Below the pieces are notes generated by a model. That model was not told the origin of the DNA, did no database searches, and worked only from the letters and a program-made list of their open reading frames with translations. 64,000 nt of DNA, taken from positions 1-64,000 of the IMG/VR virus record IMGVR_UViG_3300032607_000125. One strand, 5' to 3'. This document shows positions 1 through 60,783 of the stretch, piece by piece (position 1 is the stretch's first letter; each line of letters opens with the position of its first letter). The position numbers were made by a program, and so were the translations under genes. The DNA is from a virus.

Positions 1-702
1 GGTAATAATAGCTTGTCAATGACAAATCTAGTATCAAATACTGGAGTAGTATCAAATGACGTTGCAGGTGTTGGAACTGCTCGTATGTATTTGACTGCTG
101 CTGGTTATGGTGGCGATAAAGCTATATTTGGATATGGTAGAGGTGTGTCAATAAGTGAAGTCTATTCTCAAACAAATCTAGTATCAAATGCCGGCGTGAT
201 ATCAAGTGACGTTGCTGGAGTTGGCACTATACGGCATAGTTTAGCTGCTGCTGGTTATGGTGGTGATAAAGCTATATTTGGGTATGGAATTAATGTGTAT
301 AATGTTTATTATACACTAACTAATCTTGTATCGAATACTGGAGTAGTATCAAATGACGTTGCAGGTGTGGGCACACCGAGACAAGGTTTAGCTGCTGCTG
401 GTTATGGTGACGATAAAGCTATTTTTGGGTATGGTTCAACTAGTTCGGGTAATTCAAGTATTACAAATCTAGTATCAAACACTGGTGTAGTAGCAATGGA
501 TACAACTGGCGTAGGAACTGGGCGGTCAAGATTAGCTGCTGCTGGGTTTGGTGGCGATAAAGCTATCTTTGGATATGGGAGTGTTGGCAATGCATATAGT
601 AATTTAACAAATCTAGTATCAAACAGTGGTGTTGTATCCAATGATGTTACTGGCGTTGGAACTGCTAGATATACTCCAGGTGCTGCTGGTTACGGATCAT
701 AA
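1..702 (+). CDS. Kelch-like repeat protein, 5' end cut off (probable beta-propeller adhesin)
   Basis: The frame is open from base 1 (reading GNNS before an internal TTG), so the true start lies upstream of the window. About five imperfect repeats of 47-50 residues are visible. Each has a conserved 39-residue core that starts TNLVSNTGVV, passes an R-x-x-L-A-A-A-GYGG turn and ends DKAIFGYG, then an 8-11 residue variable linker. The GTxR, GYGG and KAIFGYG spacing resembles kelch beta-propeller blades (inference). The last repeat stops half way, as expected if the missing N-terminus completes the blade. A role as virion surface or host-recognition protein is inferred from repeats and phage context only. 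Confidence 0.7.
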   Translation, partial: GNNSLSMTNLVSNTGVVSNDVAGVGTARMYLTAAGYGGDKAIFGYGRGVSISEVYSQTNLVSNAGVISSDVAGVGTIRHSLAAAGYGGDKAIFGYGINVYNVYYTLTNLVSNTGVVSNDVAGVGTPRQGLAAAGYGDDKAIFGYGSTSSGNSSITNLVSNTGVVAMDTTGVGTGRSRLAAAGFGGDKAIFGYGSVGNAYSNLTNLVSNSGVVSNDVTGVGTARYTPGAAGYGS

Positions 703-711
703 GGAAAATAA

Positions 712-1626
712 ATGACAAGTTTAGTATTAACAGGCATTCAATATTTTGGCGGTTTCATTGAAACTTCTGCATACGCTTCAACGCAACAAGCTATTTTTGG
801 GTTTGGTACAATATCAGGATATGGCGAAGGATCTATAACAAATCTAGTATCAAATACTGGATTAGTAGCAACAGATACTGCAGGAGTTGGAAGTCCACGC
901 CAGTGGTTAGCTGCTACCGGTTTCGGCGGCGATAAAGCTATATTTGCATTTGGTAAATTTGGCGCTAGTTCTTATACTACTATAACAAATTTAGTATCAA
1001 ATATTGGAGCAGTAGCAACAGATATTACTATCTCAGCAACATCTAGATCATATTTAGCTGCTGCTGGTTATGGTGGCGATAAAGCAATCTTTGGTTATGG
1101 CGAAACGTATAGTTTTACATATATTTCATTAGTAAACTTAGTATCAAATACTGGAGTATTCTCTAGTGATGTTACCGGTGTTGGAACTGCCAGATATGCT
1201 TTAGCTGCTGCAAGTTATGGTGGCAATAAAGCTATATTTGGATATGGTAATAACGATAATGGAGACTATTCGTTGACTAATCTAGTATCAAATACTGGAG
1301 TAGTATCAAATGATGTTACAGGTGTTGGAACGCCACGTAGATTTCTATCTTCTACAAGTTATGGTGGTGATAAAGCAATGTTTATGAATGGCTTTATCAC
1401 CAAGGTAATTAATCTAGTATCAAATACCGGAGTTGTTGCTACCGATACAACTAGTGTTGCCCCAAATAGAACATACGATAGCGCAACTGGTTATGGCGGC
1501 GACAAAGCTATCACTGCAGCTAATGGCGCTGCAAATCTAATATCTAATGTTGGAATAATAGCATCTAGTATAACTATAGCCGGTAGTGGGCGTTATGCCG
1601 GTGCCGCAGCAAGTTTCTCTGTATAA
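712..1626 (+). CDS. Kelch-like repeat protein, complete (probable six-bladed beta-propeller)
   Basis: This 304-residue paralog of the upstream gene starts 9 nt after that gene's stop and in the same frame; two in-frame TAA codons separate them. An AAGGA ribosome site lies before the ATG. The N-terminus holds a half repeat (QQAIFGFG), followed by five full repeats with NLVSN, R-x-x-L, GGDKAIFGYG landmarks, and a final half repeat ending GRYAGAAASFSV. N- and C-terminal halves together make one blade, the velcro closure typical of propellers, giving about six blades (inference). Variable linkers between cores could form a binding face. Function is not established; a host-binding or virion surface role is likely. 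Confidence 0.7.
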   Translation: MTSLVLTGIQYFGGFIETSAYASTQQAIFGFGTISGYGEGSITNLVSNTGLVATDTAGVGSPRQWLAATGFGGDKAIFAFGKFGASSYTTITNLVSNIGAVATDITISATSRSYLAAAGYGGDKAIFGYGETYSFTYISLVNLVSNTGVFSSDVTGVGTARYALAAASYGGNKAIFGYGNNDNGDYSLTNLVSNTGVVSNDVTGVGTPRRFLSSTSYGGDKAMFMNGFITKVINLVSNTGVVATDTTSVAPNRTYDSATGYGGDKAITAANGAANLISNVGIIASSITIAGSGRYAGAAASFSV

Positions 1627-1668
1627 AATTTATGTGTATTTTAAAAATGAAAAAGGAAATTAATAATT

Positions 1669-2271
1669 ATGGCTTCTAAATTAAACTCTGAATTTAACTA
1701 TCGTTATCAGGTAATGGGTGAAACTGTGTGGGAAAAGATCAAGATTCTCAAGGGATTCTTGGAGGGCCGTATTCGTGCTGCATGTCTAGAAGAAGTCTCT
1801 GAAATTAAGTATCAGGCTAAAGTAGCTGAATTGGAACACCTTAGAGACATTAATGCACTGCCGCATGTGATTCTTAATCTACGTGCTGAAATTCTAGAAT
1901 TTGAATCAGGGCTACCTGCGCAGAATGAAGCGTTTGCGCTCAATAGAGAAGAAATTGAAATGCTTAAGCGTCTATTGGCGGAATGCTTTGAGATTGCAGA
2001 ACCAACTAGAATTCTTGGTTATAATGATGAACAAATGTTTGAAGCTAACGCTGCAAATGAATTCACTGCTATGATTGGAAAAGAAATCCAAGCAGAAATT
2101 ATTGCGACAGGTCATCCATCACCAGCTAAACTTCGCAATGCAATGTCTAATCCACATACTTTCCTTGCACTACAGAAAATTGGATTAATTCCAGAAAATG
2201 CAATGATGTTGGCTAGTAGTCATGATCCACTTAAGATTGAATTCACCCCACTTCAATTGGAGAACAAATAA
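1669..2271 (+). CDS. Conserved T4-like phage protein, function unknown
   Basis: A 200-residue soluble, largely helical protein with no signal peptide or membrane segment. It starts MASKLNSEFNYRYQV and has charged stretches such as KYQAKVAELEHLR. From memory, relatives with this N-terminus occur in other T4-type phages, without assigned function. AAGGAAA lies 8-14 nt before the ATG. Its stop overlaps the next start (TAATG), so the two are probably translated together. Position behind two adhesin-like genes suggests, without proof, a fiber assembly or structural accessory role. Confidence 0.6.
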   Translation: MASKLNSEFNYRYQVMGETVWEKIKILKGFLEGRIRAACLEEVSEIKYQAKVAELEHLRDINALPHVILNLRAEILEFESGLPAQNEAFALNREEIEMLKRLLAECFEIAEPTRILGYNDEQMFEANAANEFTAMIGKEIQAEIIATGHPSPAKLRNAMSNPHTFLALQKIGLIPENAMMLASSHDPLKIEFTPLQLENK

Positions 2272-2678
2272 TGTATTTTCTTTGTACTGTAACTACTGCA
2301 GCATTAGCACAAATGTATGGTAGTCCGGAAATGCCAGGCCAACCTGCAAAAGCACCCACTGTAGATTTTAAACTAGTCTTCATTGCACAAGCAACACCAG
2401 TTTGCTTGTCATATCTTGTCTTATCACAGAATGAACATCCTAGTCTAATTAGACAAACCTCAATTCCTACTGGATACGAGTTTATCTTTAGACAAAGCTG
2501 GGGTATGGCACTCAATGAAGAAGTTCTTCACCGCGTAGTTCAGACATTGCGTGCAGAAGCATATCCACCAATTGCAGATTATCTTGACGCAAAAGTCAAA
2601 AGCGATGCTGCACAGGAAGCTGCGTATATTGCGGCATGTCAAGCAGTGAAAGCACAGCATCCAAAATTTACTTTTTGA
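2271..2678 (+). CDS. Hypothetical protein coupled to the upstream gene
   Basis: A 135-residue protein whose ATG overlaps the stop of the preceding gene as TAATG. It starts MYFLCTVTTAALAQM, then has a proline-rich stretch (GSPEMPGQPAKAP) and a C-terminal alanine-rich helix ending QHPKFTF. The hydrophobic start could be taken for a short signal sequence, but no convincing cleavage or anchor pattern follows. I recognise no family. It is the last gene before a promoter and hairpin at 2680-2746 and so closes the left operon. Confidence 0.55.
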   Translation: MYFLCTVTTAALAQMYGSPEMPGQPAKAPTVDFKLVFIAQATPVCLSYLVLSQNEHPSLIRQTSIPTGYEFIFRQSWGMALNEEVLHRVVQTLRAEAYPPIADYLDAKVKSDAAQEAAYIAACQAVKAQHPKFTF

Positions 2679-2679
2679 T

Positions 2680-2708
2680 TGTACTTTAATTCGCAGATAA
2701 GGTATAAT
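2680..2708 (+). promoter_or_regulatory. Promoter TGTACT-N17-TATAAT with overlapping late-type box
   Basis: TGTACT (2680-2685) and TATAAT (2703-2708) are separated by exactly 17 nt, matching the promoters at 4044, 5006 and 60807. The -10 runs into AATAAATA (2706-2713), one base from a T4 late -10 box, so the site could serve early and late polymerase. The predicted start near 2715 is only about 5 nt before the hairpin at 2720. Confidence 0.6.
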
Positions 2709-2719
2709 AAATACTATCC

Positions 2720-2746
2720 AAAGGCTCCTAAAGGAGCCTTTGTTTT
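2720..2746 (+). terminator. Rho-independent terminator or 5' leader hairpin
   Basis: The stem AAAGGCTCC (2720-2728) pairs perfectly with GGAGCCTTT (2733-2741) around a 4-nt loop and is followed by GTTTT. It fits an intrinsic terminator for the operon ending at 2678. Because a promoter lies directly upstream, it would also be the first element of the new transcript, where it could attenuate or stabilise the SleB-ClpP message. Confidence 0.65.
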
Positions 2747-2821
2747 CTGCCCAAACTAAAAGGCTTATTGGCAAAAGTCTTCCGGGAACGTAGAGGCAAC
2801 TCTAACTACTAAGGAGAAATA

Positions 2822-3340
2822 ATGCAAAAAGTATTATTCACAATAGTCATTATGTGCACATTATTTATTTTGCACAATGACACATCGCGTAATGATTTAA
2901 TCGTATCATATAAAATTCCAAAATATGAACATTTATCAAAAGAAGAAAAAAGAGAAGTTGACTGTTTAACTACTAACATCTATAGAGAAGCAGGTATTGA
3001 ACCAGAAGCGGGCAAAATCGCAGTTGGATTAGTTACCATGAATAGAGTTAAAGCACCTGGTTTTCCAGAAACCGTGTGTGAAGTCGTTAAACAAAAAAGA
3101 AAGAGCACATGCCAATTTTCTTGGGTGTGCATGAGGAAATTACCAGACATCAATCAACAGATATATAGCTATAGCAGAAGTCTTGCAATTAAAGTCTTCT
3201 TCAATCATCATGTAATCGAGGATACGACTCTGGGCGCGCTTTTCTATCACGCCAATTATGTTCGCCCGCGATGGACTAAACTTGAAGTGACTACTATAAT
3301 TGGTAGACATATATTTTATAAACCTATCGGAGAAGCATAA
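2822..3340 (+). CDS. SleB/CwlJ-type cell-wall hydrolase (candidate endolysin)
   Basis: This 172-residue protein has an N-terminal hydrophobic segment (about residues 1-20) resembling a signal or signal-anchor sequence, then a Hydrolase_2 (SleB/CwlJ) domain. The domain shows the family landmarks NIYREAGIEPEAGK, VGLVTMNRV, FPETVCEVV and CQFSW, with LGALFYHANYVRPRW near the C-terminus. The family cuts peptidoglycan as a lytic transglycosylase or amidase. The N-terminal segment suggests export across the inner membrane, perhaps in a signal-arrest-release mode (inference). AAGGAG precedes the ATG. Its stop overlaps the start of the ClpP-like gene (TAATG). It is the best endolysin candidate here; the holin-like gene is on the other strand at 11438. 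Confidence 0.8.
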   Translation: MQKVLFTIVIMCTLFILHNDTSRNDLIVSYKIPKYEHLSKEEKREVDCLTTNIYREAGIEPEAGKIAVGLVTMNRVKAPGFPETVCEVVKQKRKSTCQFSWVCMRKLPDINQQIYSYSRSLAIKVFFNHHVIEDTTLGALFYHANYVRPRWTKLEVTTIIGRHIFYKPIGEA

Positions 3341-4053
3341 TGGATATTTTAGATATGATTGGTCCAAAGTCACACGCTAATGGCTATTTTCCCAATAAAT
3401 CTCTTGCAAACGTGCATGAGTTTTATCTCACTGGTACTATTGAAGAAGCTGCAAATTATCTAGAATGGTTTGATGCTATTCGTCATGCAGGCGAACATGA
3501 TCTAATTAAGATCTACATCAATAGTTATGGTGGTGATATGTTTACCGCTATTCAATTTATGCGAGTTCTAGCCGACACTGCTGCTACAGTAGTATGTTCT
3601 GTTGAAGGCGCATGCATGTCTGCAGCTACCATGATCTTTATGTGTGGTGATCAATTTGAAGTAACTCCACATTCGGTGTTTATGTTCCACAACTATTCTG
3701 GTGGTACCATTGGCAAAGGTGGAGAAATGATTGATCAACTTATGCATGAGCGTCGTTGGTCTGAACGTCTAATGAATGAAATCTATAAAGACTTCATGAC
3801 AGATGTTGAAATCAAAGCGATGTTAGACAATAAAGATATGTGGATGGACGGCGAAGAAGTTGTAGTTCGTATGACAGCACGTATTGCAAAGATGCAGAAA
3901 GATGTAGATGCTGCATTAAAAGCTGAAGAAGCCGAAGAAGAAGAACAAGTCAAGCCAAAGAAAACGACTGTTAAGAAGGCACCTACTAAACGCCCATTAG
4001 TTAAAAAGCCTGCAGTTAAAAAGACTCCAACAAAAAGAAAACCTGTACAATAA
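3340..4053 (+). CDS. ClpP-like serine protease (S14 family) with lysine-rich tail
   Basis: A 237-residue protein with a ClpP fold over residues about 22-180: NSYGGD (61-66) as the oxyanion-region glycines, Ser94 in GACMSAA as the nucleophile position and His117 in MFHNYSGG as the catalytic histidine. The acidic member is probably Asp163 or Asp166, shifted about one residue from E. coli Asp171 by my hand alignment. The usual N-terminal Clp-ATPase docking loops are not obvious. Residues 194-204 are acidic and 205-237 are a Lys/Pro/Thr histone-H1-like tail. Translation is coupled to SleB. Phage ClpP homologs act as head-maturation or auxiliary proteases; since gp21 is present here, an auxiliary or host-directed role is more likely (inference). 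Confidence 0.8.
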   Translation: MDILDMIGPKSHANGYFPNKSLANVHEFYLTGTIEEAANYLEWFDAIRHAGEHDLIKIYINSYGGDMFTAIQFMRVLADTAATVVCSVEGACMSAATMIFMCGDQFEVTPHSVFMFHNYSGGTIGKGGEMIDQLMHERRWSERLMNEIYKDFMTDVEIKAMLDNKDMWMDGEEVVVRMTARIAKMQKDVDAALKAEEAEEEEQVKPKKTTVKKAPTKRPLVKKPAVKKTPTKRKPVQ

Positions 4054-4072
4054 ATCATAATTATGGTATAAT
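4044..4072 (+). promoter_or_regulatory. Promoter TGTACA-N17-TATAAT for tRNA-Arg
   Basis: TGTACA (4044-4049), a 17-nt spacer and TATAAT (4067-4072) lie just upstream of the tRNA, so transcription should begin near 4079. The -10 is embedded in a perfect 18-bp palindrome (4063-4080). Confidence 0.7.
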
Positions 4073-4080
4073 TATACCAT
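4063..4080. repeat. Perfect 18-bp palindrome over the tRNA promoter -10
   Basis: ATGGTATAATTATACCAT reads the same on both strands and contains TATAAT in both directions. It could be an operator for a dimeric regulator or a chance product of the GGTATAAT promoter core. The leftward copy has no matching -35 at 17 nt (GTTGAA on the minus strand). Confidence 0.6.
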
Positions 4081-4083
4081 ACT

Positions 4084-4155
4084 CTGGCGTTCGTTCAACG
4101 GATAGGACAAATCTCTTCTAAAGATTTAATGGTGGTTCGATTCCACTACGCCGGA
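4084..4155 (+). tRNA. tRNA-Arg(UCU)
   Basis: A 72-nt cloverleaf was folded by hand. The acceptor stem CTGGCGT pairs with ACGCCGG plus discriminator A4155. The D arm is GTTC/GGAC with loop AACGGATA. The anticodon stem AATCT/AGATT encloses loop CTTCTAA with anticodon TCT. The T arm is GGTGG/CCACT around TTCGATT. CCA is encoded at 4156-4158. It decodes AGA, a codon frequent in these AT-rich phage genes, which is the usual reason phages keep this tRNA. It is the only tRNA I found in the window. Confidence 0.93.
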
Positions 4156-4177
4156 CCATTTTTATTAGGACTATATT

Positions 4178-4399
4178 ATGGCATACGTATCAGTTGATGT
4201 AGACGTTGATCTTGAAGAGTTTAGTGATAGCGAACTTTTAGACGAGGTACGAGATCGTGGGTTTACTATCTCATCACTAGAAGAATCTACAACACTTGAA
4301 GAAGACCTTGTAGTGATCTACCAACTGCATAGACTAGGACGCCCGTATGATCACCTGATGGATGCTTACATCTATAAACACCTAGGCAAAATAATTTAA
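4178..4399 (+). CDS. Small acidic hypothetical protein
   Basis: A 73-residue, strongly acidic protein (VDVDVDLEEFSDSELLDEV) that follows the tRNA by 22 nt, with AGGA before the ATG, so it is likely cotranscribed from 4044. The central EESTTLEEDLVVIYQLHRLGR segment looks helical. No family is recognised. Small acidic early proteins of phages often bind host proteins or mimic DNA, but nothing here shows that directly. Confidence 0.6.
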   Translation: MAYVSVDVDVDLEEFSDSELLDEVRDRGFTISSLEESTTLEEDLVVIYQLHRLGRPYDHLMDAYIYKHLGKII

Positions 4400-4403
4400 G
4401 CTA

Positions 4404-4432
4404 TATACATTATATCGTCTTTATGGTATAAT
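4404..4432 (+). promoter_or_regulatory. Promoter TATACA-N17-TATAAT abutting a start codon
   Basis: TATACA (4404-4409) and TATAAT (4427-4432) are separated by 17 nt and share the ATGGTATAAT core with the tRNA promoter. The ATG of the next gene is at 4439, where transcription should start, so the message is predicted to be leaderless. Confidence 0.6.
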
Positions 4433-4438
4433 AGATCC

Positions 4439-4663
4439 ATGGCAAATGCACACTTTCAACAAAAAATCGCATCCGACGAACTTCGGGATACTATCTTCTT
4501 TGTCACATCTTCATATTCAAATAAAGAAAAAGCTAAAGATTTTGTAACACTTAGAGTTCCAAATCTTGAAGTTAAAATCACTAATTTTAAAAATATTATC
4601 GTCAATGGTAATAAGTGTAAATCAGTGTATGAAGCAAAACTAGCAATTATGAAAATGCTATGA
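4439..4663 (+). CDS. Small basic hypothetical protein, predicted leaderless
   Basis: A 74-residue protein (MANAHFQQKIASDELRDTIF...) with a mixed alpha/beta look (FVTLRVPNLEVKITNF). There is no Shine-Dalgarno sequence and no alternative start nearby. The ATG lies 6 nt behind a strong -10, so the mRNA probably starts at the initiation codon. The end overlaps the next gene by 4 nt (ATGA). No family is recognised. Confidence 0.6.
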   Translation: MANAHFQQKIASDELRDTIFFVTSSYSNKEKAKDFVTLRVPNLEVKITNFKNIIVNGNKCKSVYEAKLAIMKML

Positions 4664-5004
4664 TAATTTATAATAATATCAAAAAACGTAAACCACAAAA
4701 ATTAAACGCAACTCAACGGCAACTTGCTAGTGAATGGGAAGCTATTGTTAATGGTTATAAACCAAAGAAACAACTGAAGCAATCTACGTCTACTAAATTA
4801 GATTACACTTTAAGTGATGGCCCACGTGGAAAATCGCCTAATATTAAAAGTCTAGGTGAATGGATAACTGGTTCAGTATCTTCTAAACCAAATCAGCAAT
4901 ATACTGGCGATAAGATATTGGGTATTGGCACACTACATAAATCAAATGCTATTCCAGTCTTCACCGATGAAGAAGCTAAAAGTCTTGCCTCCATGCGGCG
5001 CTGA
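4660..5004 (+). CDS. Basic hypothetical protein
   Basis: A 114-residue, lysine- and serine-rich protein translationally coupled (ATGA) to the gene before. It starts MIIYNNIKKRKPQKL, contains QLASEWEAIVNGYKPKKQLKQ and ends DEEAKSLASMRR. The middle looks disordered. No enzyme motif or membrane segment is visible. The basic N-terminus could bind nucleic acid (inference only). Confidence 0.55.
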   Translation: MIIYNNIKKRKPQKLNATQRQLASEWEAIVNGYKPKKQLKQSTSTKLDYTLSDGPRGKSPNIKSLGEWITGSVSSKPNQQYTGDKILGIGTLHKSNAIPVFTDEEAKSLASMRR

Positions 5005-5005
5005 T

Positions 5006-5034
5006 TGTACATTTAATCTTAACTATATTATAAT
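5006..5034 (+). promoter_or_regulatory. Promoter TGTACA-N17-TATAAT abutting a start codon
   Basis: TGTACA (5006-5011), a 17-nt spacer and TATAAT (5029-5034). The next ATG is at 5040, so the predicted start site coincides with the initiation codon, the same arrangement as at 4404-4439. It should drive the run of small genes leading to gp33 and gp59. Confidence 0.65.
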
Positions 5035-5039
5035 AAACT

Positions 5040-5306
5040 ATGAATCGTAAACAGTTTGAATCTAACATTGCAGATGCGCATCTGTATAACCAACCGCAAA
5101 AGATTGAAGAAATCTTTATTGAGTTAATTAGTATGCGAAGTAAACTTGATCGTTGGTTTACTAAGTATATTGATATGTTTGATGAAAGAATGGCAGTATT
5201 GCCAACAGACAATCCTATCTGGAAATTGTATAACGTTAAGTTTGACGAGTATAGTGAAATCAATCAAACAATTAAAACTGCCGAATATTACATGAAGAAA
5301 GCATAA
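5040..5306 (+). CDS. Small helical hypothetical protein, predicted leaderless
   Basis: An 88-residue protein rich in charged helix (NQPQKIEEIFIELISMRSKL, then EINQTIKTAEYYMKKA at the end). No ribosome site precedes it; the ATG sits 5 nt after a TATAAT. It ends 1 nt before the gp33 start, so both belong to one operon. No family is recognised. The helical make-up would suit a small protein-binding factor (inference). Confidence 0.6.
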   Translation: MNRKQFESNIADAHLYNQPQKIEEIFIELISMRSKLDRWFTKYIDMFDERMAVLPTDNPIWKLYNVKFDEYSEINQTIKTAEYYMKKA

Positions 5307-5307
5307 T

Positions 5308-5523
5308 ATGTTTAAAGGTGCCTCCTCATTTTCTCTTCACATTGAAGAAATCGTAAAAGAATCTAGAGTATCGCATATGGATGCAGTACTAAAATACTGC
5401 GCTGATAACTTTCTAGAACCAGATGACATTAAAAGTCTGGTGAATAAGCCTCTAAGAGATAAGATTGAACGTGATATGCGTGAAGCAAATCTTCTTCCTA
5501 AACAAGCAATGTTGGATGTATGA
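5308..5523 (+). CDS. 33: Late transcription coactivator gp33
   Basis: A 71-residue protein matching the phage late-transcription coactivator family. Its body, SHMDAVLKYCADNFLEPDDI followed by KSLVNKPLRDKIERDMREANLL, carries the hallmark YxDAVxxYxExxxIEPxxIxxL pattern. In T4, gp33 binds the RNA polymerase beta flap and links gp55-polymerase to the gp45 sliding clamp to activate late promoters. Its partner gp55 is at 60862, and TATAAATA boxes occur across the window. The last codon and stop overlap the next gene by 4 nt. Confidence 0.85.
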   Translation: MFKGASSFSLHIEEIVKESRVSHMDAVLKYCADNFLEPDDIKSLVNKPLRDKIERDMREANLLPKQAMLDV

Positions 5524-5789
5524 AAATAGAAATGGTCATGTGCCATGCAACATTGATGTCTATGTTGCTTCGTCCAGAAGAATTGCAAAACGCTGTTAAT
5601 AGTTATACTGCATCTGCGCCGGATGTACAGAATGAGGGTTTCACTGGATACATGGAAACTAAAGTAACTTTTCATGTTAAAGATCTAGAGAAATTCTCTG
5701 CACTTTATAAAAGTGCTTATGTATACCCATCTGATCGCACAGCATGGTATTTTAAAGTAAAACGAGGACTAATGGAGTGCATTAAATGA
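5520..5789 (+). CDS. Hypothetical protein
   Basis: An 89-residue protein coupled by ATGA overlaps to gp33 before it and to the next gene after it. It starts MKIEMVMCHATLMSMLLRPE and has a central region (YMETKVTFHVKDLEKFSALY) that looks like a beta-alpha unit. No motif is recognised. Tight packing in an early operon with transcription and replication factors is the only hint of a role. Confidence 0.6.
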   Translation: MKIEMVMCHATLMSMLLRPEELQNAVNSYTASAPDVQNEGFTGYMETKVTFHVKDLEKFSALYKSAYVYPSDRTAWYFKVKRGLMECIK

Positions 5790-6058
5790 GTACAGATATT
5801 GACAAAGAAAAACGTAGTCGACGTCTTCATAATGATGAGACCTATATCGCTAAGCAAGTAAAGATTGCTAAGTCAAATGGAATTCCAGTAAAACCAGGTG
5901 AAGAACACAAGTATCATAAACGTAGTGGTGTAACATGCGGTGATTCTAATTGCGTGATGTGTGGCAATCCACGTAAGTTCTTCAGTCAATTGACTATGCA
6001 AGAAAAGAATTTTATTCAAACGGAGCAATGGACTGATGACACCGAATCCAAGTTGTAA
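5786..6058 (+). CDS. Small putative zinc-binding phage protein
   Basis: A 90-residue protein with a Cys/His cluster at about residues 41-62: HKYHKRSG, then TCGDSNCVMCGNPRKFF. The C-x4-C-x2-C spacing followed by GNPRK and a glutamine-rich SQLTMQEKNF segment is, to my recollection, common in short conserved phage proteins of unknown function. The cysteines suggest a structural zinc site (inference). It overlaps the neighbours on both sides (4 nt and 23 nt). Confidence 0.65.
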   Translation: MSTDIDKEKRSRRLHNDETYIAKQVKIAKSNGIPVKPGEEHKYHKRSGVTCGDSNCVMCGNPRKFFSQLTMQEKNFIQTEQWTDDTESKL

Positions 6059-6251
6059 ATTAGAGTGCAAATTTAGCACTTCATTTGGTATGACTACCGC
6101 CATGTACTGCCCTCCAGTCTATGATAAAGATGGAACAAATCTTAATACTGACATGAATATTACTTCAACGACTGTAGATTGTTCAGTTTGCAATAAATCA
6201 TGGTCAAGTTCTACTCGTGCCGGCACTTCTACATTTGATGAAATCTTGTGA
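6036..6251 (+). CDS. Small cysteine-containing hypothetical protein
   Basis: A 71-residue frame with two cysteine pairs (NPSCKLECKF and VDCSVCNKSW), consistent with a small zinc ribbon. The stated ATG gives a 23-nt overlap with the upstream gene; a later ATG at 6090 (MTTAMYCPP) would remove the overlap but lose the first cysteine pair. The stop overlaps the gp59 start by 4 nt, which supports translation of this frame. No family is recognised. Confidence 0.5.
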   Translation: MTPNPSCKLECKFSTSFGMTTAMYCPPVYDKDGTNLNTDMNITSTTVDCSVCNKSWSSSTRAGTSTFDEIL

Positions 6252-6850
6252 TTGACGCATTCTCTACATACAAATACTTTATGGCTATCAAGTTGCATTT
6301 TACAACTGATCGTTATGATGTATTCCAAGCTAACGGAAAAGTCTCTGGATCTAGAGCAACGTTTGAAAAGCGTAACGATAGATTCTTATTTGATAAGATT
6401 GGACGTAAGTTTGATCAACCCCGCGAATTAATTGATTACTTTGTAGCTAACTTTGCTTATGGCAATAAGAGTGTAATCTATTCAAGTGAATCAACTGATT
6501 ATCATGAAGTGTGGACTAAACGAAAAGAGTCTCGAACTCATATGTTTAAGATGCAAATGTCTGATATTCAAAGACATCTTGAAAACAACAATCTTAAGTA
6601 TGAAGATTTGTTTAATATAGATAATAATGTACCAGAACTTTTGAGTCTATATGTTGGCGGACATGTTCACTTAGAAACTATGGTTATCTTAGACCAATTT
6701 GAAAACTTCCTCCAGCAATGGGAACCACTTGTTATGCTTTGGGGCGATCAACTCCGTATCATCAATAAGACAAAAAAGTTTGTCAAGTTTGACCAAATTA
6801 AGATACAATCAATCTATCAACAATATAAAGAATCATTCGCAGAACTCTAA
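6248..6850 (+). CDS. 59: gp59-type replicative helicase loader
   Basis: A 200-residue protein, close to the 217 residues of T4 gp59. The N-terminal half carries the family pattern FSTYKYFMAIKLHF, then YDVFQANGKVSGSR and KRNDRFLFDKIGRKF; the helical C-terminal half has HLETMVILDQFENF. gp59 recognises fork DNA, binds gp32 and loads gp41 helicase, coupling recombination to replication. It lies two genes before gp32, its known partner. The helicase and polymerase genes are not in this window. Confidence 0.85.
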   Translation: MIDAFSTYKYFMAIKLHFTTDRYDVFQANGKVSGSRATFEKRNDRFLFDKIGRKFDQPRELIDYFVANFAYGNKSVIYSSESTDYHEVWTKRKESRTHMFKMQMSDIQRHLENNNLKYEDLFNIDNNVPELLSLYVGGHVHLETMVILDQFENFLQQWEPLVMLWGDQLRIINKTKKFVKFDQIKIQSIYQQYKESFAEL

Positions 6851-6851
6851 C

Positions 6852-7082
6852 ATGGGCCGTACTCTACATAATCACAATGATCAAGATGATGATCGCAAAA
6901 GCAAAACTAAATTTGCTAAACATGCAAAACACACTAAAAATATCCCAGGAAGTGGGATGCGTGTTATAAATAGATGGTCAGAGGAATCAGAACCCGTCGA
7001 AGATTTAGACTATGATAGTTTTAATCTAGACGATGATGGTGACTATGACGATGACACAGCAAAATACTTCGCAAAATCGTAA
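6852..7082 (+). CDS. Small His/Lys- and Asp-rich hypothetical protein
   Basis: The frame is open further upstream inside gp59, but the sensible start is the ATG at 6852, 1 nt after the gp59 stop, giving 76 residues. The first half is basic and histidine-rich (MGRTLHNHN, KSKTKFAKHAKHTKN); the second half is very acidic (EPVEDLDYDSFNLDDDGDYDDD). Such a charge-split, probably disordered protein between gp59 and gp32 could interact with DNA-bound factors, but no family is known to me. Confidence 0.6.
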   Translation: MGRTLHNHNDQDDDRKSKTKFAKHAKHTKNIPGSGMRVINRWSEESEPVEDLDYDSFNLDDDGDYDDDTAKYFAKS

Positions 7083-7106
7083 ACAATCGTACACTAAGGA
7101 AAATAT

Positions 7107-8021
7107 ATGGACATTACTACACTTCGCAAAATGCGCAATACAGACTTCGGTAAAATCTCTACCGAGTTCAACAAGATCGCTAATCCACAAAGCGAATCAA
7201 AGTCTTATCAAGACGACCGCTTCTGGAAACTAGAAGCAGACAAAGCCGGTAATGCTACCGCAACTATTCGATTCCTCCCACGCGCTGAAGGCGACGAACT
7301 CCCTTGGGTTCGCGTATTTAATCATGGGTTCCAAGGGCCTACTGGGAAATGGTACATCGAAAACTCTCTTACAACTATTGGTGAAAACGATCCGGTCGGT
7401 GAACTAAATTCTCGTCTGTGGAATACTGGTAATGATGCTGATAAGGAAGTCGCTCGTAAACAAAAGCGTCGTCTACAGTACATTGCAAACGTTTTGATCG
7501 TATCAGATCCTAAGCATCCAGAAAACGAAGGACAAGTTCGCTTGTATAAGTTTGGCAAGAAGATCTTCGATAAGATTATGGACAAAGCTCGTCCAACATT
7601 TGAAGATGAAACGCCAGTCAATGTGTTTGACTTGTGGGAAGGTGCAGACTTTAAACTTCGTCAACGTAAAGTTGAGGGTTATCCTAACTATGATCAGTCG
7701 GTGTTTAATGCTCCAGCTCCAGTTTCTGAAGATGAAGAAGAAATTCTTAAAGTTGTAAATGCTCAACATAAGCTTGCTGAGTTTATCGATAAGAAAAACT
7801 TCAAGACTTATGAAGAACTATCGCGTAAGTTGGTATCTGTTTTGAATAGTGAGATGGCAGCACCTGCACCATCAGCTGCGAATATGGATAATGCTGATGA
7901 TGATTATACACCACCAGTTCGCACTGCTGCTAAACCTACAGTGAAGATCTCCAAGCCGGCAGATGACGGTGATGACGATGAGGCAATGAGTTACTTTAAG
8001 AAGATTGCTCAGGAAGATTAA
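7107..8021 (+). CDS. 32: Single-stranded DNA-binding protein gp32
   Basis: A 304-residue gp32, near T4's 301. The N-terminal cooperativity segment (MDITTLRKMRNTDFG), the OB-fold core with RFWKLEADKAGNATATIRFLP, ENEGQVRLYKFGKKIFDKI and VFDLWEGADFKLR, and an acidic C-terminal tail (residues about 250-304, ending DDGDDDEAMSYFKKIAQED) are all visible. T4's zinc site is not conserved: its CPVC segment aligns with NDPVGEL, without cysteines, as I recall for marine T4-types. The protein coats ssDNA in replication and recombination and binds gp59 and UvsY. AAGGAAA precedes the ATG and a strong terminator follows. Confidence 0.95.
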   Translation: MDITTLRKMRNTDFGKISTEFNKIANPQSESKSYQDDRFWKLEADKAGNATATIRFLPRAEGDELPWVRVFNHGFQGPTGKWYIENSLTTIGENDPVGELNSRLWNTGNDADKEVARKQKRRLQYIANVLIVSDPKHPENEGQVRLYKFGKKIFDKIMDKARPTFEDETPVNVFDLWEGADFKLRQRKVEGYPNYDQSVFNAPAPVSEDEEEILKVVNAQHKLAEFIDKKNFKTYEELSRKLVSVLNSEMAAPAPSAANMDNADDDYTPPVRTAAKPTVKISKPADDGDDDEAMSYFKKIAQED

Positions 8022-8041
8022 TCTATAACGTAGATAAAAAC

Positions 8042-8067
8042 AAAGGGAGGCCGAAGCCTCCCTTTTT
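8042..8067. terminator. Bidirectional intrinsic terminator
   Basis: A 10-bp stem AAAGGGAGGC / GCCTCCCTTT around CGAA, followed by more T on the plus strand. Upstream GATAAAAACAAA gives GTTTTTATC after the hairpin on the minus strand, where the loop reads as a stable UUCG. It can end gp32 transcripts from the left and the tape-measure operon from the right. Confidence 0.85.
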
Positions 8068-8078
8068 ATTGGAATGAT

Positions 8079-8252
8079 ATGAACAATGAAATTAAATACT
8101 TAGTCTATAAGAATGGTGTCAACATAGGTTCATTTAAGAATCTAGTTCTTGGCATTGAACAGATTAAATCTACGTGTAAAGGTTCTATAACAATATATCA
8201 GATACGTGATATTCACACGCAAGAAGTAGTGTGGGATGGATTAATAGACTGA
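8079..8252 (+). CDS. Small hypothetical protein in a convergent gap
   Basis: A 57-residue frame starting MNNEIKYLVYKNGVNIGSF and ending EVVWDGLID. It looks protein-like (alternating beta strands around YLVYKNGVN and ITIYQIRD). It begins 12 nt after the gp32 terminator and its 3' end overlaps the end of the minus-strand tape-measure gene by 12 bp. No promoter or clear ribosome site was found, so expression would need readthrough. No family is recognised. Confidence 0.5.
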   Translation: MNNEIKYLVYKNGVNIGSFKNLVLGIEQIKSTCKGSITIYQIRDIHTQEVVWDGLID

Positions 8253-10118
8253 TCTAGCACTAAAATATCTATCAACACTTGATTCATGTGTGCGCACATT
8301 TGATGTTACACTTGCGATCGCTGTCTGTTTAACATTAGTAGTCACTGAAGGTGCACTAACTATACTAGCGCCAAGAGCGCCTTGCTCTTTCATTGCTCCA
8401 ATTTGACTAGACATACCAGACACTTTAGAACCAGCGTTTGAACCAAATGAACTTAATCCTTGACTAAGTTTTTCCATTCCTATTCCAGCTTGTGCCAAAC
8501 CAGGACCATAACTAGCAATTTGTTCTAATTGCTCAATAGGTGATTTTTTGCCACTTACTGCGCCTAAGAATCCTGTTACTAAGTTAGCGACACCTGCAAC
8601 GGCTCCGCCTGCGCCAAATGCTGCCATGCCAGCGCCGACTGCAACTAGTCCAGCACCAACTGAGATTAAGTTACTACCATCAACAGCACCAAGTCTTTCA
8701 ATGCTAGTCACAATTGAATCCATAATTCCAGTAATAGCATCTGATATAGAAGTCACAATGTTGACGATCACGTCTCCAATTGATTTTAGAATTTCTGGTA
8801 TTGCTTTAATAGCTTCGATGAATACTCCGCCAACTACTTCTGCAACTTTCATTAGAACTGGAGCAAAAGCTTCAATTGCAGGTGCAGCCATACCAAGCGC
8901 TTTACCTAAAGCCATTGATGCTACTGCTAATGTTAGAATAACTGGAATCGCTGGAGTTAACGCGATTAATCCAGGTGCTAAAGACATAAGACCTCGACCA
9001 ATACCACTAAGGATTGCGCCTAATCCCTTGCCTGCTCCTGCACCTAATTTTGCTAGTGCGTTTCCAAGACCACCAAGGACACCGCCCCCACTATCGCTGC
9101 TATCACTATTAGCACTAGTTTTACTAACACCTTCATGAGGTCCACCAGTGTTAGTTACAATTTGCTTAAGTATGAATATTTGTTCTTCTTGAACTTTTTG
9201 TGCTTCATTCTTATCTTCTTTAGAAACCGTCACTTTTCTATTTTTAGTGATATCTTCCTTTGCAACATCAGGCGAAGTTTTAGCAACTGGCTTAATAGGT
9301 ATTGGTTCATCGCGTTGATTTTCAATACTAATCTTTGCGGCGTGAGCACTATCTTTAGATTTTTCTTGTTCTTCTCTTACAAATTCAGATTTCTTATCAT
9401 GTTTGGCATACTCTTCTGCAAGTATAGCTTTCTTAGCAAATAACTTCTTTCCTTCCGGCGTTTTAGCCAGTTGAGTATCATCATCTAACCCAGTAACTTT
9501 CTTAAGTTTAGTGATACTTTCTTCAGTGCTCTTTAAACCTTTTGAAGCTTGGTGCGCCATAGCAAAATCTGTCTTAAGTTCTTCATCGGTTTTAGTAGAA
9601 CCAAGTGCTTTCTGCTGTTTAATAAAATCACTTTGAGCAATTTTCTTATTAAGCAATCCACCAACGTTTACAGCGCTAAGAGCAGTTCTGCCAATATTGC
9701 CTTTACCATATTTTTCACCAAATGATTTTTTCATATCACCTAGTTTTTCGCCAACAGTTTTAAAGGTTTTCATACTGGTAGCTACAACGGCCATTGCCTG
9801 AAGTTCGCGCTCAGTCATAGAATTATTAGCTTTTGCTAACTTTATTAATTCTTTTTGTGATGCTTCTATTTCATTTAAACTATCATTTTCTTCTTCAATA
9901 GTTTTATCAGCTTTTCTTTGTTCTAGCGCTTGTAACGCGTCTATAGCTACCAAAGCAGTAAGTTTAGTAGAATTAGTAGAGATAGCATCCGATATAGAAC
10001 CAAGATGTTCATTCGAAAGTTTTTGAAGTTCAAGCAGTTGAGTAAACCCCGCTTCTTGAGTCTTAGTGCCTTCTCTAATGCTAGAATTAACTGAGCTATT
10101 GCCTGTTCTTTTTGCCAT
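8241..10118 (-). CDS. Tail tape-measure-like protein (candidate gp29)
   Basis: A 625-residue protein. Residues 1-330 are charged and helical with coiled-coil character (ELQKLSNEHLGSI, NSLNEIEASQKELIKLA). Residues about 345-590 are Gly/Ala-rich and hydrophobic (ALAKLGAGAGKGLGAILSG, TPAIPVILTLAVASMALGKA), the make-up of tape-measure proteins that fill the tail tube and insert into the host membrane. The length is close to T4 gp29 (590), and gp51-like and gp26 genes sit just upstream in the operon, as in the T4 hub cluster. Sequence similarity to gp29 itself is not obvious to me, so the assignment rests on composition, size and neighbours. Confidence 0.6.
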   Translation of the reverse strand: MAKRTGNSSVNSSIREGTKTQEAGFTQLLELQKLSNEHLGSISDAISTNSTKLTALVAIDALQALEQRKADKTIEEENDSLNEIEASQKELIKLAKANNSMTERELQAMAVVATSMKTFKTVGEKLGDMKKSFGEKYGKGNIGRTALSAVNVGGLLNKKIAQSDFIKQQKALGSTKTDEELKTDFAMAHQASKGLKSTEESITKLKKVTGLDDDTQLAKTPEGKKLFAKKAILAEEYAKHDKKSEFVREEQEKSKDSAHAAKISIENQRDEPIPIKPVAKTSPDVAKEDITKNRKVTVSKEDKNEAQKVQEEQIFILKQIVTNTGGPHEGVSKTSANSDSSDSGGGVLGGLGNALAKLGAGAGKGLGAILSGIGRGLMSLAPGLIALTPAIPVILTLAVASMALGKALGMAAPAIEAFAPVLMKVAEVVGGVFIEAIKAIPEILKSIGDVIVNIVTSISDAITGIMDSIVTSIERLGAVDGSNLISVGAGLVAVGAGMAAFGAGGAVAGVANLVTGFLGAVSGKKSPIEQLEQIASYGPGLAQAGIGMEKLSQGLSSFGSNAGSKVSGMSSQIGAMKEQGALGASIVSAPSVTTNVKQTAIASVTSNVRTHESSVDRYFSARSVY

Positions 10119-10124
10119 GATAGT

Positions 10125-10268
10125 TTATCTCTTTTGTGCTTCTAACCGTTGTTTTTCTTCTTCTAAATATTGTATAAGCATAGCGGTATAAATTTCACGT
10201 TCAAAGGGGATCATATTCTCAATTTCCCCTAGACTATACTTGTGGTACTGCATAAGCGCAAAGTTCAT
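10125..10268 (-). CDS. gp51-like baseplate hub assembly protein
   Basis: A 47-residue frame starting MNFALMQYHKYSLGEIENM and continuing IPFEREIYTAMLIQYLEEE to a charged end QRLEAQKR. The HKYSL...MIPFEREIY pattern is what I recall for small hub-assembly (gp51-type) proteins of marine T4-like phages. It lies between gp26 and the tape-measure gene and is separated from the latter by 6 nt. The frame stays open upstream (…YHDSLHNYYK) without an ATG, so a non-ATG start slightly earlier is possible. Confidence 0.55.
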   Translation of the reverse strand: MNFALMQYHKYSLGEIENMIPFEREIYTAMLIQYLEEEKQRLEAQKR

Positions 10269-10306
10269 CTTATAGTAATTATGCAGACTGTCATGATATA
10301 AGCAAA

Positions 10307-11020
10307 TTAGAAAAAAGATTCGAGGCCTTTAATAACCTTTTGATGATCTTTCTTACACACTGGACAAACGTATTTAACTGTTTCTTCAAGTTTTGGCATT
10401 GTGTCAAAGAAAGCTTGAAGTTTACTGAATTGTTCTTGTGTTAAATTATTTACAAACTCACGAACTTCTTCTGGTTTTTGCTCTTTAGTTGGATACACTT
10501 CATCACTGTCATAGATAGAGTCAATACACTGGCATATAATCTCAAACAATAATTCGACATCACCATTAGTAAGACCATCCATTTTCTTAATGATATCAAG
10601 AGTTGGATATTTCATAATAGCGCCAACGTCATTAAATAGCAAAATTGTTTTCTTATGTTCTTTTGGTACTTGAACTTTAACTTTAGTTAAATCAATAGAA
10701 TATCGCACTGTTGCTTTATCGTCTTCACACGTATCACACTTTAGAATAATATCTACAATTTCACCAACTGACTTTGCTCTAAGCTGAGTGAAAATATATT
10801 CTACGTCAAATACTGCTAGATCATTTACGTTTATTTTATCCATGACACAAGACTCAATGACTGACTTTAAAGTCTCAATCATAGTGTCAGGATCTTCACT
10901 TTGTTGTGCGATTAATAGAGCCTTTTCTTCTTTTACTAGAAATGGTCTATAGGTGACAGACTTATTAGTTGAAGGAATTGTCAATTTATATCGCGGCGCT
11001 TGTGCCTGTGGTAATGCCAT
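10307..11020 (-). CDS. 26: gp26-like baseplate hub subunit
   Basis: A 237-residue protein (T4 gp26 is 208) with the family's N-terminal signature YKLTIPSTNKSVTYRPFLVK followed by EEKALLIAQQ, the FDVEYIFTQLRAKSVGE block and the LQAFFDTMPKL segment near the C-terminus. Two cysteine pairs (CDTC in the middle, CPVCKKDH near the end) could bind zinc. In T4, gp26 belongs to the genes needed to build the baseplate hub. The gene sits 2 nt downstream of gp16 and upstream of the gp51-like gene. Confidence 0.8.
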   Translation of the reverse strand: MALPQAQAPRYKLTIPSTNKSVTYRPFLVKEEKALLIAQQSEDPDTMIETLKSVIESCVMDKINVNDLAVFDVEYIFTQLRAKSVGEIVDIILKCDTCEDDKATVRYSIDLTKVKVQVPKEHKKTILLFNDVGAIMKYPTLDIIKKMDGLTNGDVELLFEIICQCIDSIYDSDEVYPTKEQKPEEVREFVNNLTQEQFSKLQAFFDTMPKLEETVKYVCPVCKKDHQKVIKGLESFF

Positions 11021-11022
11021 TA

Positions 11023-11436
11023 TTATTTTCCTTTTCGAATATCATCAAGCATCTTGCTTAATTCAGTTGTGCTACCAACAAAGATAGCGTTATTAGTCAC
11101 TGCTGCAATTTCCTTTGACTCGCCTTTAGGATTATCAATTGTTTGCTTCTTCTTATGCAGATCAAGTAGTTGATGATTAATGTCTGAAAGATGTTTCATC
11201 AATCCGCCAACAACTTCAAAAGCTCTGGGATGTTCACTTTGCTTTGCAACTTCTAATGCTGCATTTAGTGCTTCTTGTCCTTGAACCATTATACTATGTA
11301 AGTTTGAACGAGTAGTTTCATAATCATATTCTAATGATTGATTTTTTGAAACAACAACGTTTCCGTTAGATATAATATCAACTTTTCCAATTGGTTCTAC
11401 TTTAAACACTTCACTTAAATTATCATCAATATTCAT
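11023..11436 (-). CDS. 16: Small terminase subunit gp16
   Basis: A 137-residue protein matching T4 gp16 (164). It has the central two-helix region YDYETTRSNLHSIMVQGQEA ... SEHPRAFEVVGGLMKHLSDI and the C-terminal NNAIFVGSTTELSKML, equivalent to T4 NATVFMGSPTELMDE. gp16 forms rings that recognise viral DNA and stimulate the gp17 ATPase and nuclease. Unlike T4, where 16 and 17 are adjacent, this gene is about 37 kb from gp17 and on the opposite strand. Confidence 0.88.
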   Translation of the reverse strand: MNIDDNLSEVFKVEPIGKVDIISNGNVVVSKNQSLEYDYETTRSNLHSIMVQGQEALNAALEVAKQSEHPRAFEVVGGLMKHLSDINHQLLDLHKKKQTIDNPKGESKEIAAVTNNAIFVGSTTELSKMLDDIRKGK

Positions 11437-11437
11437 A

Positions 11438-11716
11438 TTATTTAGTGCTAGATTCCTCTGCGCTCGCTTGTTGTATTACTATAGATTTTTCTTTGCTACG
11501 ACCATAAGCAGTAACACCCAATATACCACCAAAGGCTAAGTGAATGAAACCGCCGTTTTCAAGTGTTAGTGACTTCCATAAATCAATTTCAACACCCTTC
11601 AATCTTAGATATAACACGAATGCAGGTGCTATGATGAAGTCAAATATATTGATAGCCATATACGTCCAACCCATAGCAGGACGCCATAAAGATCGTACCC
11701 AGTGTTCTTCTATCAT
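11438..11716 (-). CDS. Holin-like membrane protein
   Basis: A 92-residue protein with two clear hydrophobic segments, about residues 18-40 (YMAINIFDFIIAPAFVLYL) and 58-70 (FIHLAFGGILGVTAYG), plus a weaker one at the N-terminus (WRPAMGW). The WRPxxGW start and short charged tail resemble phage and gene-transfer-agent holins with three membrane spans. It would open the inner membrane at lysis. Its start overlaps the end of the gp54-like gene by 4 nt, and gp16 follows after 1 nt, so it is expressed with late morphogenesis genes. Confidence 0.65.
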   Translation of the reverse strand: MIEEHWVRSLWRPAMGWTYMAINIFDFIIAPAFVLYLRLKGVEIDLWKSLTLENGGFIHLAFGGILGVTAYGRSKEKSIVIQQASAEESSTK

Positions 11717-12471
11717 ACAAATAATCCGCCTAAACTTGTTTCAATGCCCTGACGCTCTAATCTAGAAATAGATCTACTAATTGCATTGCTGTCATTGATT
11801 CTTTGCTGATACTCTTGAAAGTTAGAGTAATACAGTTCATTAGTGTTTGCATCCATGCTAATCGCTGTAGCACCATATTGCTGTAGTGTTAACTGATCTC
11901 CAGTCACGTTTATGTTATTGTCTATAAGCGCATTGGATGGTACTGTGGCCCAATTTTTATTAATATGATTTTTATACGCAAACGTTACACCTAATCTCAT
12001 AACGTCTTTAGAATTATTATCCAATGTTATTGACTGAACTGCTTTTGGAAATACTTCATACATTTCACATTCATAAGTGTTATTGTTTTCTACGTCTTGA
12101 ATTACTATATTCATTTTAGTAGCATACTGATCGTAATACCCATTAAGCCGTGTTGTTGGATTTACTATAACGTTCATCCATTCATCAAATAACTTTTTAA
12201 CTAACATCTTACTATCAACTAAGAAAACCAATGTTATATTTTCAAAATTTCTTTCATATACAACTTCGCGAGTTTCACCAAATGTTCTAATTGGTTGAGT
12301 AGCTACTGCAAGTCCAGGCAGTGCAGCTTGTTCACAGAACAAATGTACTACATTTAATTCATTAAATAAATTTGGCATTCCAGATGGAAGTGATATATTA
12401 ACAGTAAATCTATTCTGTCTTGCAATGCCATCATTCTTTACTTGCGCAATAAAGTCTCTTAGTGCAGCCAT
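11713..12471 (-). CDS. 54: gp54-like baseplate tail-tube initiator
   Basis: The frame is open to 12555 but the start used is the ATG at 12471, overlapping the previous stop as TAATG and giving 252 residues with MAALRDFIAQVKNDGIARQN. This N-terminus parallels the tail tube protein gp19 at 52190 (MANISDFKAQLTGGGARANQ), and VHLFCEQAALPGLAVATQPI matches the tube-fold pattern. In T4, gp54 and gp48 sit on the baseplate and start tube assembly; gp48 is encoded just across the divergent promoter. T4 gp54 is longer (320). Another tube-fold paralog cannot be ruled out. Confidence 0.65.
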   Translation of the reverse strand: MAALRDFIAQVKNDGIARQNRFTVNISLPSGMPNLFNELNVVHLFCEQAALPGLAVATQPIRTFGETREVVYERNFENITLVFLVDSKMLVKKLFDEWMNVIVNPTTRLNGYYDQYATKMNIVIQDVENNNTYECEMYEVFPKAVQSITLDNNSKDVMRLGVTFAYKNHINKNWATVPSNALIDNNINVTGDQLTLQQYGATAISMDANTNELYYSNFQEYQQRINDSNAISRSISRLERQGIETSLGGLFV

Positions 12472-46172: not shown

Positions 46173-46772
46173 ATGGATAAGTATCAAAAATGGTATAACG
46201 CTCTAATAGATAATGCTAAAAAAAGAGCATGGGTAAAAAAGACTGCGCCATGCTATGTTGAAAGACACCACATTATTCCAAAATCTCTAGGTGGATCAAA
46301 TGATTCTAATAATTTAGTTTTTCTAACAGCAAGAGAACATTGTGTAGCGCATTTGATGTTGTGCAGATTTGGCAATAAGAATCAAATGATTAATGCTTTG
46401 CAAAGATTTATGTCATCAAATAAAACGGTATCTAGCATTTTATATGAAAGTTGTAAAAAACAATTTTCTATTATGATAAGCGAAAGATTAAAAGGCAATA
46501 AACATAGATTAGGTAAAATCGATTCTATAGAAACTCGTAAAAAGAAAAGTGTGCTTGGAAAGGGTGGTACTTGGAAAAGAACTGATGAACATAGAAGACA
46601 ATGTTCTGAAAGAGCTACTAAGAGAGCATACGAAAACAATCCTATGAATAGTGAAGAATCTAGAAAAAAAGTTGCTTTAAGTAAAATTGGTAGAAAGAAA
46701 TATATCAATCAATTAACTGGAGAAAGTAAAATGTTTTTACCTGGAACAGAGTTAATAGGTTGGAGTCGTTAA
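46173..46772 (+). CDS. HNH homing endonuclease between gp13 and gp14
   Basis: A 199-residue free-standing endonuclease from the ATG at 46173; a TTG at 46161 overlapping the gp13 end would add four residues. The HNH core is ERHHIIPKSLGGSNDSNNLV with LTAREHCVAHLML, that is H-H, N, N and H as metal and catalytic residues. The C-terminal part (NPMNSEESRKKVALSKIGRK, then a YINQLTGESKMFLPG strand) looks like a DNA-binding NUMOD-type module. Such genes sit between conserved phage genes, cut genomes lacking them and spread by repair. gp14 begins 1 nt after its stop, so it is inserted into the neck operon. Confidence 0.9.
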   Translation: MDKYQKWYNALIDNAKKRAWVKKTAPCYVERHHIIPKSLGGSNDSNNLVFLTAREHCVAHLMLCRFGNKNQMINALQRFMSSNKTVSSILYESCKKQFSIMISERLKGNKHRLGKIDSIETRKKKSVLGKGGTWKRTDEHRRQCSERATKRAYENNPMNSEESRKKVALSKIGRKKYINQLTGESKMFLPGTELIGWSR

Positions 46773-57888: not shown

Positions 57889-57896
57889 TATAAATA
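57889..57896 (+). promoter_or_regulatory. Late promoter abutting a start codon
   Basis: A perfect TATAAATA with only GAGT between it and the ATG at 57901. Late transcripts start about six bases after the box, so the message would begin at or next to the start codon. Confidence 0.7.
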
Positions 57897-57900
57897 GAGT

Positions 57901-60754: not shown

Positions 60755-60783
60755 ATTATACCATCAGTCAGAAGATCTGTACA
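60755..60783 (-). promoter_or_regulatory. Minus-strand promoter TGTACA-N17-TATAAT, antisense to uvsW region
   Basis: On the minus strand TGTACA (60783-60778), a 17-nt spacer and TATAAT (60760-60755) preceded by GG match the plus-strand class exactly. It points left into the 3' end of the plus-strand gene at 60382 and uvsW, where no minus gene is credible. Confidence 0.55.

Follow-up and report, generated by a model that had tools for sequence, protein, structure and literature searches.

Conserved close spacing of promoter and start codon predicts a class of leaderless genes in a T4-like phage and its relatives

The DNA described here (the window) consists of positions 1 to 64,000 of a 130,182-base virus record, the remainder of which was also analyzed, with genes called there by a simple codon-based caller. 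Judged by its sequence, the record derives from a T4-like phage; the gp32-like protein at 7107 matches Methylophilales phage Melnitz at 51% and Pelagibacter phage Mosig at 49%, and RegA lies at genome position 71271-71633. The features around the two genes of interest, 4439 and 5040, are as follows.

4044-4072, plus strand: third promoter of the 4439/5040 family (TGTACA-17-TATAAT), ahead of a tRNA gene
4084-4158, plus strand: tRNA-Arg (TCT), directly downstream of that promoter
4404-4409, plus strand: -35 hexamer TATACA of the gene 4439 promoter, read directly from the sequence
4427-4432, plus strand: -10 hexamer TATAAT of the gene 4439 promoter, with TGG in front (extended -10)
4433-4438, plus strand: 6-nt discriminator AGATCC of gene 4439; close relatives keep the length and vary the bases (GGATCT, AGGTCT)
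4439-4663, plus strand: gene 4439, predicted to be leaderless, 74 aa, without known family; predicted +1 is the A of the ATG
4660-5004, plus strand: gene 4660, downstream of 4439, 114 aa, phrog_27048 (unknown), without a Shine-Dalgarno (SD) sequence
5006-5011, plus strand: -35 hexamer TGTACA of the gene 5040 promoter, read directly from the sequence
5029-5034, plus strand: -10 hexamer TATAAT of the gene 5040 promoter
5035-5039, plus strand: 5-nt discriminator AAACT of gene 5040; 5 nt in all orthologs, including the distant L095/L096
5040-5306, plus strand: gene 5040, predicted to be leaderless, 88 aa, without known family
5308-5523, plus strand: gp33-type late-transcription co-activator (PF16805), the next gene after 5040

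An earlier note on this DNA had claimed that both genes start immediately behind a promoter and have no SD sequence. Direct reading bears this out: the arrangement is TATACA-17-TATAAT-6 nt-ATG at 4439 and TGTACA-17-TATAAT-5 nt-ATG at 5040, and no SD-like sequence precedes either ATG. The -10 hexamer occupies about the place that an SD sequence would need, and neither gene has an SD-led start further downstream. Both spacers, at 17 nt, fall within the 16-18 nt range of sigma70-type promoters, and both promoters agree with the sigma70 consensus at 10 of 12 positions, a score that six further sites in the first 12 kb reach as well; a TG precedes the -10 hexamer at 4427 only, not at 5029. The T4-type late promoter element TATAAATA is not present at 4439 or 5040, where TATAATAG and TATAATAA stand instead, and late TATAAATA sites are separate from promoters of this type. 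Because a generic scan for sigma70-like matches in positions 1-12000 found 39, with no excess over the 41.4 found in shuffled sequence, promoter matches prove nothing by themselves. The non-random part at 4439 and 5040 is the distance from the -10 hexamer to the ATG.

The start of gene 4660 overlaps the stop of gene 4439 (ATGATAA), and its homologs have a leaderless-type promoter of their own in two relatives, at 6 nt in G013 and 7 nt in G014. A search of 50,697 phage records with the proteins of genes 4439 and 5040 gave no match, and neither protein could be assigned to a PHROG or Pfam family. Protein 5040 is predicted to fold as a helical hairpin (pLDDT 92), and a fold search with this model gave significant matches to uncharacterised phage proteins only; the model of protein 4439 was too poor for use.

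Under a strict definition, the 130-kb record contains 29 promoters of the 4439/5040 family. An open reading frame starts 5-6 nt past the -10 hexamer at six of them, namely 4439, 5040 and four outside the window:

64388: predicted leaderless gene, 722 aa, CobT-like peptidase (phrog_459)
103535: predicted leaderless gene, 194 aa, unknown
110307: predicted leaderless gene, 429 aa, DNA ligase
128654: predicted leaderless gene, 68 aa

The remaining promoters mostly have an ATG about 16-30 nt past the -10 hexamer, often with an SD sequence, or are followed by a tRNA or by no open frame. The family is absent from the plus strand between 5.1 and 60.8 kb, the region of the structural genes; since the promoter class is also sigma70-like, it is plausible that 4439 and 5040 are early genes, as the earlier note called them. 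On the minus strand of the window, a promoter of the same family (TGTACA-17-TATAAT, 60755-60783) points antisense into ORF 60382-60735.

To put the spacing on a wider basis, we analyzed the record together with those 18 of 24 related contigs, chosen by homology, that had at least one match to TGTACA-17-TATAAT-N4-7-ATG; a reversed control pattern had no match in the 24. This selection favors offsets of 4-7 nt in general and cannot favor 5-6 nt over 4 or 7 nt, and the ligase, which is leaderless here, was itself a bait for finding relatives. For each of the 222 promoter cores obtained, we measured the distance from the -10 hexamer to the first ATG opening at least 40 codons. The distribution was bimodal, with a peak at 5-6 nt (54 of 222 promoters) and a main mode at about 17-33 nt. 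Specifically, 20 promoters had a distance of 5 nt, 34 of 6 nt, one of 7 nt, two of 11 nt and 107 of 15 nt or more, while 58 had no such ATG within 60 nt; distances of 0-4, 8-10 and 12-14 nt did not occur among the 222. From position-specific base frequencies and the rate of open frames, about 3.3 cases with an open frame of at least 40 aa would be expected at 5-6 nt.

The short class comprises 23 protein families; some of these, such as G011 43794+, are lone small open frames and may not be real genes. Counted by family, 26 of the 29 occurrences at offsets 0-14 fall in 2 of the 15 slots (P about 4e-20). A -10 hexamer at a fixed short distance ahead of open frames, a mark of the -10-adjacent architecture of the Deinococcus type, is found here, with nearly empty flanks. 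The earlier note had taken two cases of the same geometry as a sign of design rather than accident, and that view has gained considerably: the genome has at least six cases, and the group as a whole has 23 gene families with this geometry.

The genes of the short class differ from the others in more than spacing. An SD sequence precedes none of the 54, compared with 75 of 100 leadered genes, and the base before the ATG is a pyrimidine in all 54, compared with 66 of 100 (P 6e-8). Only ATG opens genes in the start slot, where an open frame of at least 60 aa follows 53 of 65 ATG codons, none of three TTG codons and not the single GTG; GUG and UUG are poorly used as leaderless starts in Escherichia coli, and an AUG start is what is looked for in leaderless genes. 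Among leadered promoters of the same type, a pyrimidine followed by A stands at positions 6-7 past the -10 hexamer in 71 of 100, a preference that makes the A of the ATG the likely start base in the 6-nt class. The 5' coding ends of the short class contain little G (3.6 compared with 5.1 residues in nt 4-33, P 0.0025) and show weak structure (P 0.01). CA repeats, a reported translation enhancer (PMC9031893), were not significantly enriched in the short class (P 0.14).

The earlier note had proposed a search of related phages for a conserved TATAAT-to-ATG spacing, and such conservation is what we found for 4439, 5040 and the ligase, using orthologs from IMG/VR that are 57-85% identical. The 4439 orthologs keep 6 nt in six of six cases, with 5 nt in the distant relative G011, and their first codons and N-terminus are nearly invariant. 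For 5040, the spacing is 5 nt in all close orthologs. In L095/L096, 57% identical to 5040, the start is situated three codons farther to the 5' side, and a promoter lies 5 nt before the new ATG; by the alignment, promoter and ATG have shifted together in these relatives. In many contigs at 58-81% identity the ligase has a spacing of 6 nt, among them some with another -35 hexamer (TTGACA in L049, L052 and L062), and in L032 it has 5 nt; it is leadered in L015-L017, L027 and L038. Across orthologs, the discriminator bases vary while the spacing stays.

Switching between the leaderless and the leadered form occurs in the ligase, a metallophosphoesterase, a CobS-like gene and three smaller families. 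In the ligase and the metallophosphoesterase, leadered and leaderless orthologs align residue 1 to residue 1; in the CobS-like gene and the three smaller families the N-termini are slightly shifted. The CobS-like gene, for example, is leadered here, with ATA in the slot (genome 66585-66618), and leaderless in G010, with ATG in the slot (L122 11382-11394). A search of IMG/VR with the CobT-like protein gave no matches.

Four relatives show a different use of the slot. At G009 2959+, G010 56428+, G016 5073- and G018 28903+ (loci L116, L124, L119 and L135), an AUG in the leaderless slot opens a short conserved upstream open reading frame (uORF; MNWRTHG...) that overlaps an SD-led ATG, and the genes behind these frames encode putative uvsX/RecA-like proteins of about 385 aa. 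Our own genome has no such slot uORF at 107246.

The arrangement does not extend to all T4-like phages. T4 and Melnitz have no open frame of at least 60 aa at 5-6 nt past TATAAT, where the same test gives six in our genome, and four large, more distant relatives, G017, G019, G022 and G023 (88-177 kb), have no match to the pattern. The main strand of T4 carries ten TATAAT-N5/6-ATG strings; the annotation was consulted for seven of them, and at none of these seven is the ATG an annotated start. A scan of IMG/VR for the geometry gave, among the matches listed, open frames in 71 of 125 at 5-6 nt and 47 of 111 at the 8-9 nt control spacing, fractions that differ only modestly, so that we claim no collection-wide enrichment; these matches include examples with long open frames in other contigs, and 8-9 nt spacings with open frames as well. 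In T4 (NC_000866 40192-40157, minus strand), TATAATAGATCT-ATG lies upstream of gene 55 and starts a two-codon open frame (ATG AAT TGA) just before the gene 55 SD sequence; this ATG is a possible 5'-terminal AUG.

We consider it highly probable (about 0.88) that 4439 and 5040 belong to a conserved leaderless architecture, that is, a fused module of promoter and start codon that would serve a subset of early-type genes in these T4-like phages. The host sigma70 RNA polymerase would bind TGTACA-17-TATAAT (consensus TGTACAaTAAtTCGTattTgTGGTATAAT) and would start transcription, after a pyrimidine, on an A that is the sixth or seventh base past the -10 hexamer. This A would be the first base of the start codon, so that the mRNA would begin 5'-AUG with neither leader nor SD sequence. 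Leaderless mRNAs are characteristically translated by 70S ribosomes in a kasugamycin-insensitive manner, and here too 70S ribosomes would bind the 5'-terminal AUG. The remaining genes served by promoters of this type carry a leader, in most cases with an SD sequence. The exact 5' end, the 70S route and the early timing are what we infer; the claim that these genes are leaderless and not accidentally so is strongly supported by the bimodal and conserved spacing, the invariable pyrimidine, the lack of SD sequences and the restriction to ATG, and the 5' ends themselves stand as predictions.

The promoters could be real and their closeness to the genes a product of compaction, with 4439 and 5040 translated mainly from longer read-through mRNAs (from the 4044 promoter into 4439, and from the 4404 promoter into 5040) by SD-less or coupled initiation. 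The local genes do form a compact cluster on one strand, with no terminator-like site listed on the plus strand from 4044 to 5040, and the nearby genes 4660 and 5308 likewise have no SD sequence. Compaction, however, would also yield distances of 0-4 and 8-14 nt, and hardly any of these are seen, whereas the pyrimidine in 54 of 54 cases and the ATG-only rule fit initiation at the A. Moreover, many of the genes have the promoter directly in front of them (the ligase, the CobT-like gene and the phosphoesterase, with the ligase and the phosphoesterase doing so in several phages). We regard read-through as an improbable main source of translation.

RNA polymerase often distributes its start sites over 2-3 neighboring bases, and spacings of 5 and 6 nt both occur, even among orthologs. 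Transcription might thus start 1-3 nt ahead of the ATG, or at mixed positions, to give very short leaders and not an exact 5'-AUG. Such a start would lie only 3-6 bases past the -10 hexamer, closer than usual. In addition, 71% of leadered promoters carry pyrimidine-A at positions 6-7, and the A of this pair falls at the same place as the first base of the ATG in the 6-nt class; very short leaders in place of an exact 5'-AUG are very improbable. A related point counts against exact initiation in the 5-nt class, whose A is at position 6 past the -10 hexamer compared with position 7 favored by leadered promoters, so that some of the mRNAs could begin at a T or G instead and lack the AUG. As for chance, strings like TATAAT and ATG are common in AT-rich DNA, and the generic scan of positions 1-12000 did not exceed shuffles. 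Coincidence of this kind is scarcely credible when 54 cases are observed against 3.3 expected, the spacing is conserved across orthologs 57-85% identical, and T4 and Melnitz give none under the same search; the spacing distribution, the family switching and the enrichment statistics already contradict it.

Leaderless mRNAs in E. coli follow the 70S route and are translatable when initiation is disturbed (PMC9031893), a property that the earlier note had suggested and that the mRNAs of this phage may share, and phage transcripts have been stated to be often leaderless (PMC5312081). A close parallel is in Deinococcus-Thermus (PMC12340547), where the SD sequence is replaced by a -10 hexamer that precedes the open frame by about 6-7 bp, transcription rises just behind this motif, and SD-led genes occur in the same genome. 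There it is a cellular, genome-wide mode, found in roughly one third of the genes of D. radiodurans and mostly with TACACT, whereas here it is a phage promoter family with conserved -35 hexamer and spacer, used by a minority of genes and with ATG only. The naturally leaderless lambda cI (PMC4965119) likewise has a phage mRNA that begins with AUG and is translated SD-free, as is predicted here, but it is one repressor gene of a temperate phage, whereas the T4-like phages here have a set made up of metabolic genes and small unknown ones. In Lactococcus cremoris (PMC10986495), leaders were measured as either <5 nt or about 40 nt long, and no leader fell between 4 and 14 nt; the similar gap here is deduced from phage sequence, while that one was measured in a bacterium. 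E. coli 5'-terminal AUG uORFs on SD-led mRNAs (PMC4965119) resemble the slot-AUG short frames of the four relatives, unlike genes 4439 and 5040, which have no downstream SD-led start. The early promoters of T4 and Melnitz (PMC9004378) are alike in belonging to T4-like phages, in using the host polymerase and in being of sigma70 type, and differ in having no open frame of at least 60 aa 5-6 nt past TATAAT; in the Melnitz paper, "leaderless" occurs in a reference title only. The literature searched, outside which most subscription papers lay, does not describe any conserved leaderless class for phages of the T4 type.

Discussion of leaderless mRNAs usually centers on individual phage genes such as lambda cI or on particular groups of bacteria and archaea. 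If our reading is true, leaderless and SD-led classes from one promoter family would form a natural paired system in T4-like phages, because orthologs such as the ligase occur both with and without a leader while starting at the same Met, and it would become testable why an organism picks one initiation route over another. Annotation would be affected as well, because gene finders that give credit for an SD sequence can put leaderless starts in the wrong place. A bolder extension, which we think rather unlikely, is a two-branch early program from one promoter family, in which the bases at about +1 to +3 would set whether a gene is leaderless (AUG at +1) or SD-led. Translation of the leaderless branch (ligase, CobS/CobT-like genes, nucleotide enzymes) would then continue in infected cells while SD-dependent initiation is repressed, for instance by RegA, which the phage itself encodes, or by changes in ribosomes or initiation factors. 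A separate idea, escape of leaderless genes from RegB, a nuclease that cuts GGAG, was unsupported, as no RegB was found and the control was equally silent.

Several other features of the record deserve mention. A late-type TATAAATA lies 4 nt ahead of the ATG of a tail-tube-like gene (window 57889-58434) that has no SD sequence, and comparable late-type spacings of 4-6 nt occur in G002, G010, G011 and Melnitz (62276-, 121054-); these are possibly leaderless late genes. Two repeat-built open frames occupy 13-1626 of the window, with the motifs TNLVSNTGVV and YGGDKAIFGYG, the second frame having no PHROG match. Just upstream of the tRNA, at 3340-4053, is a ClpP-like protease (phrog_1827, ATP-dependent protease) whose C-terminal tail is rich in lysine, and an HNH homing endonuclease (phrog_655) lies among the structural genes at 46173-46772.
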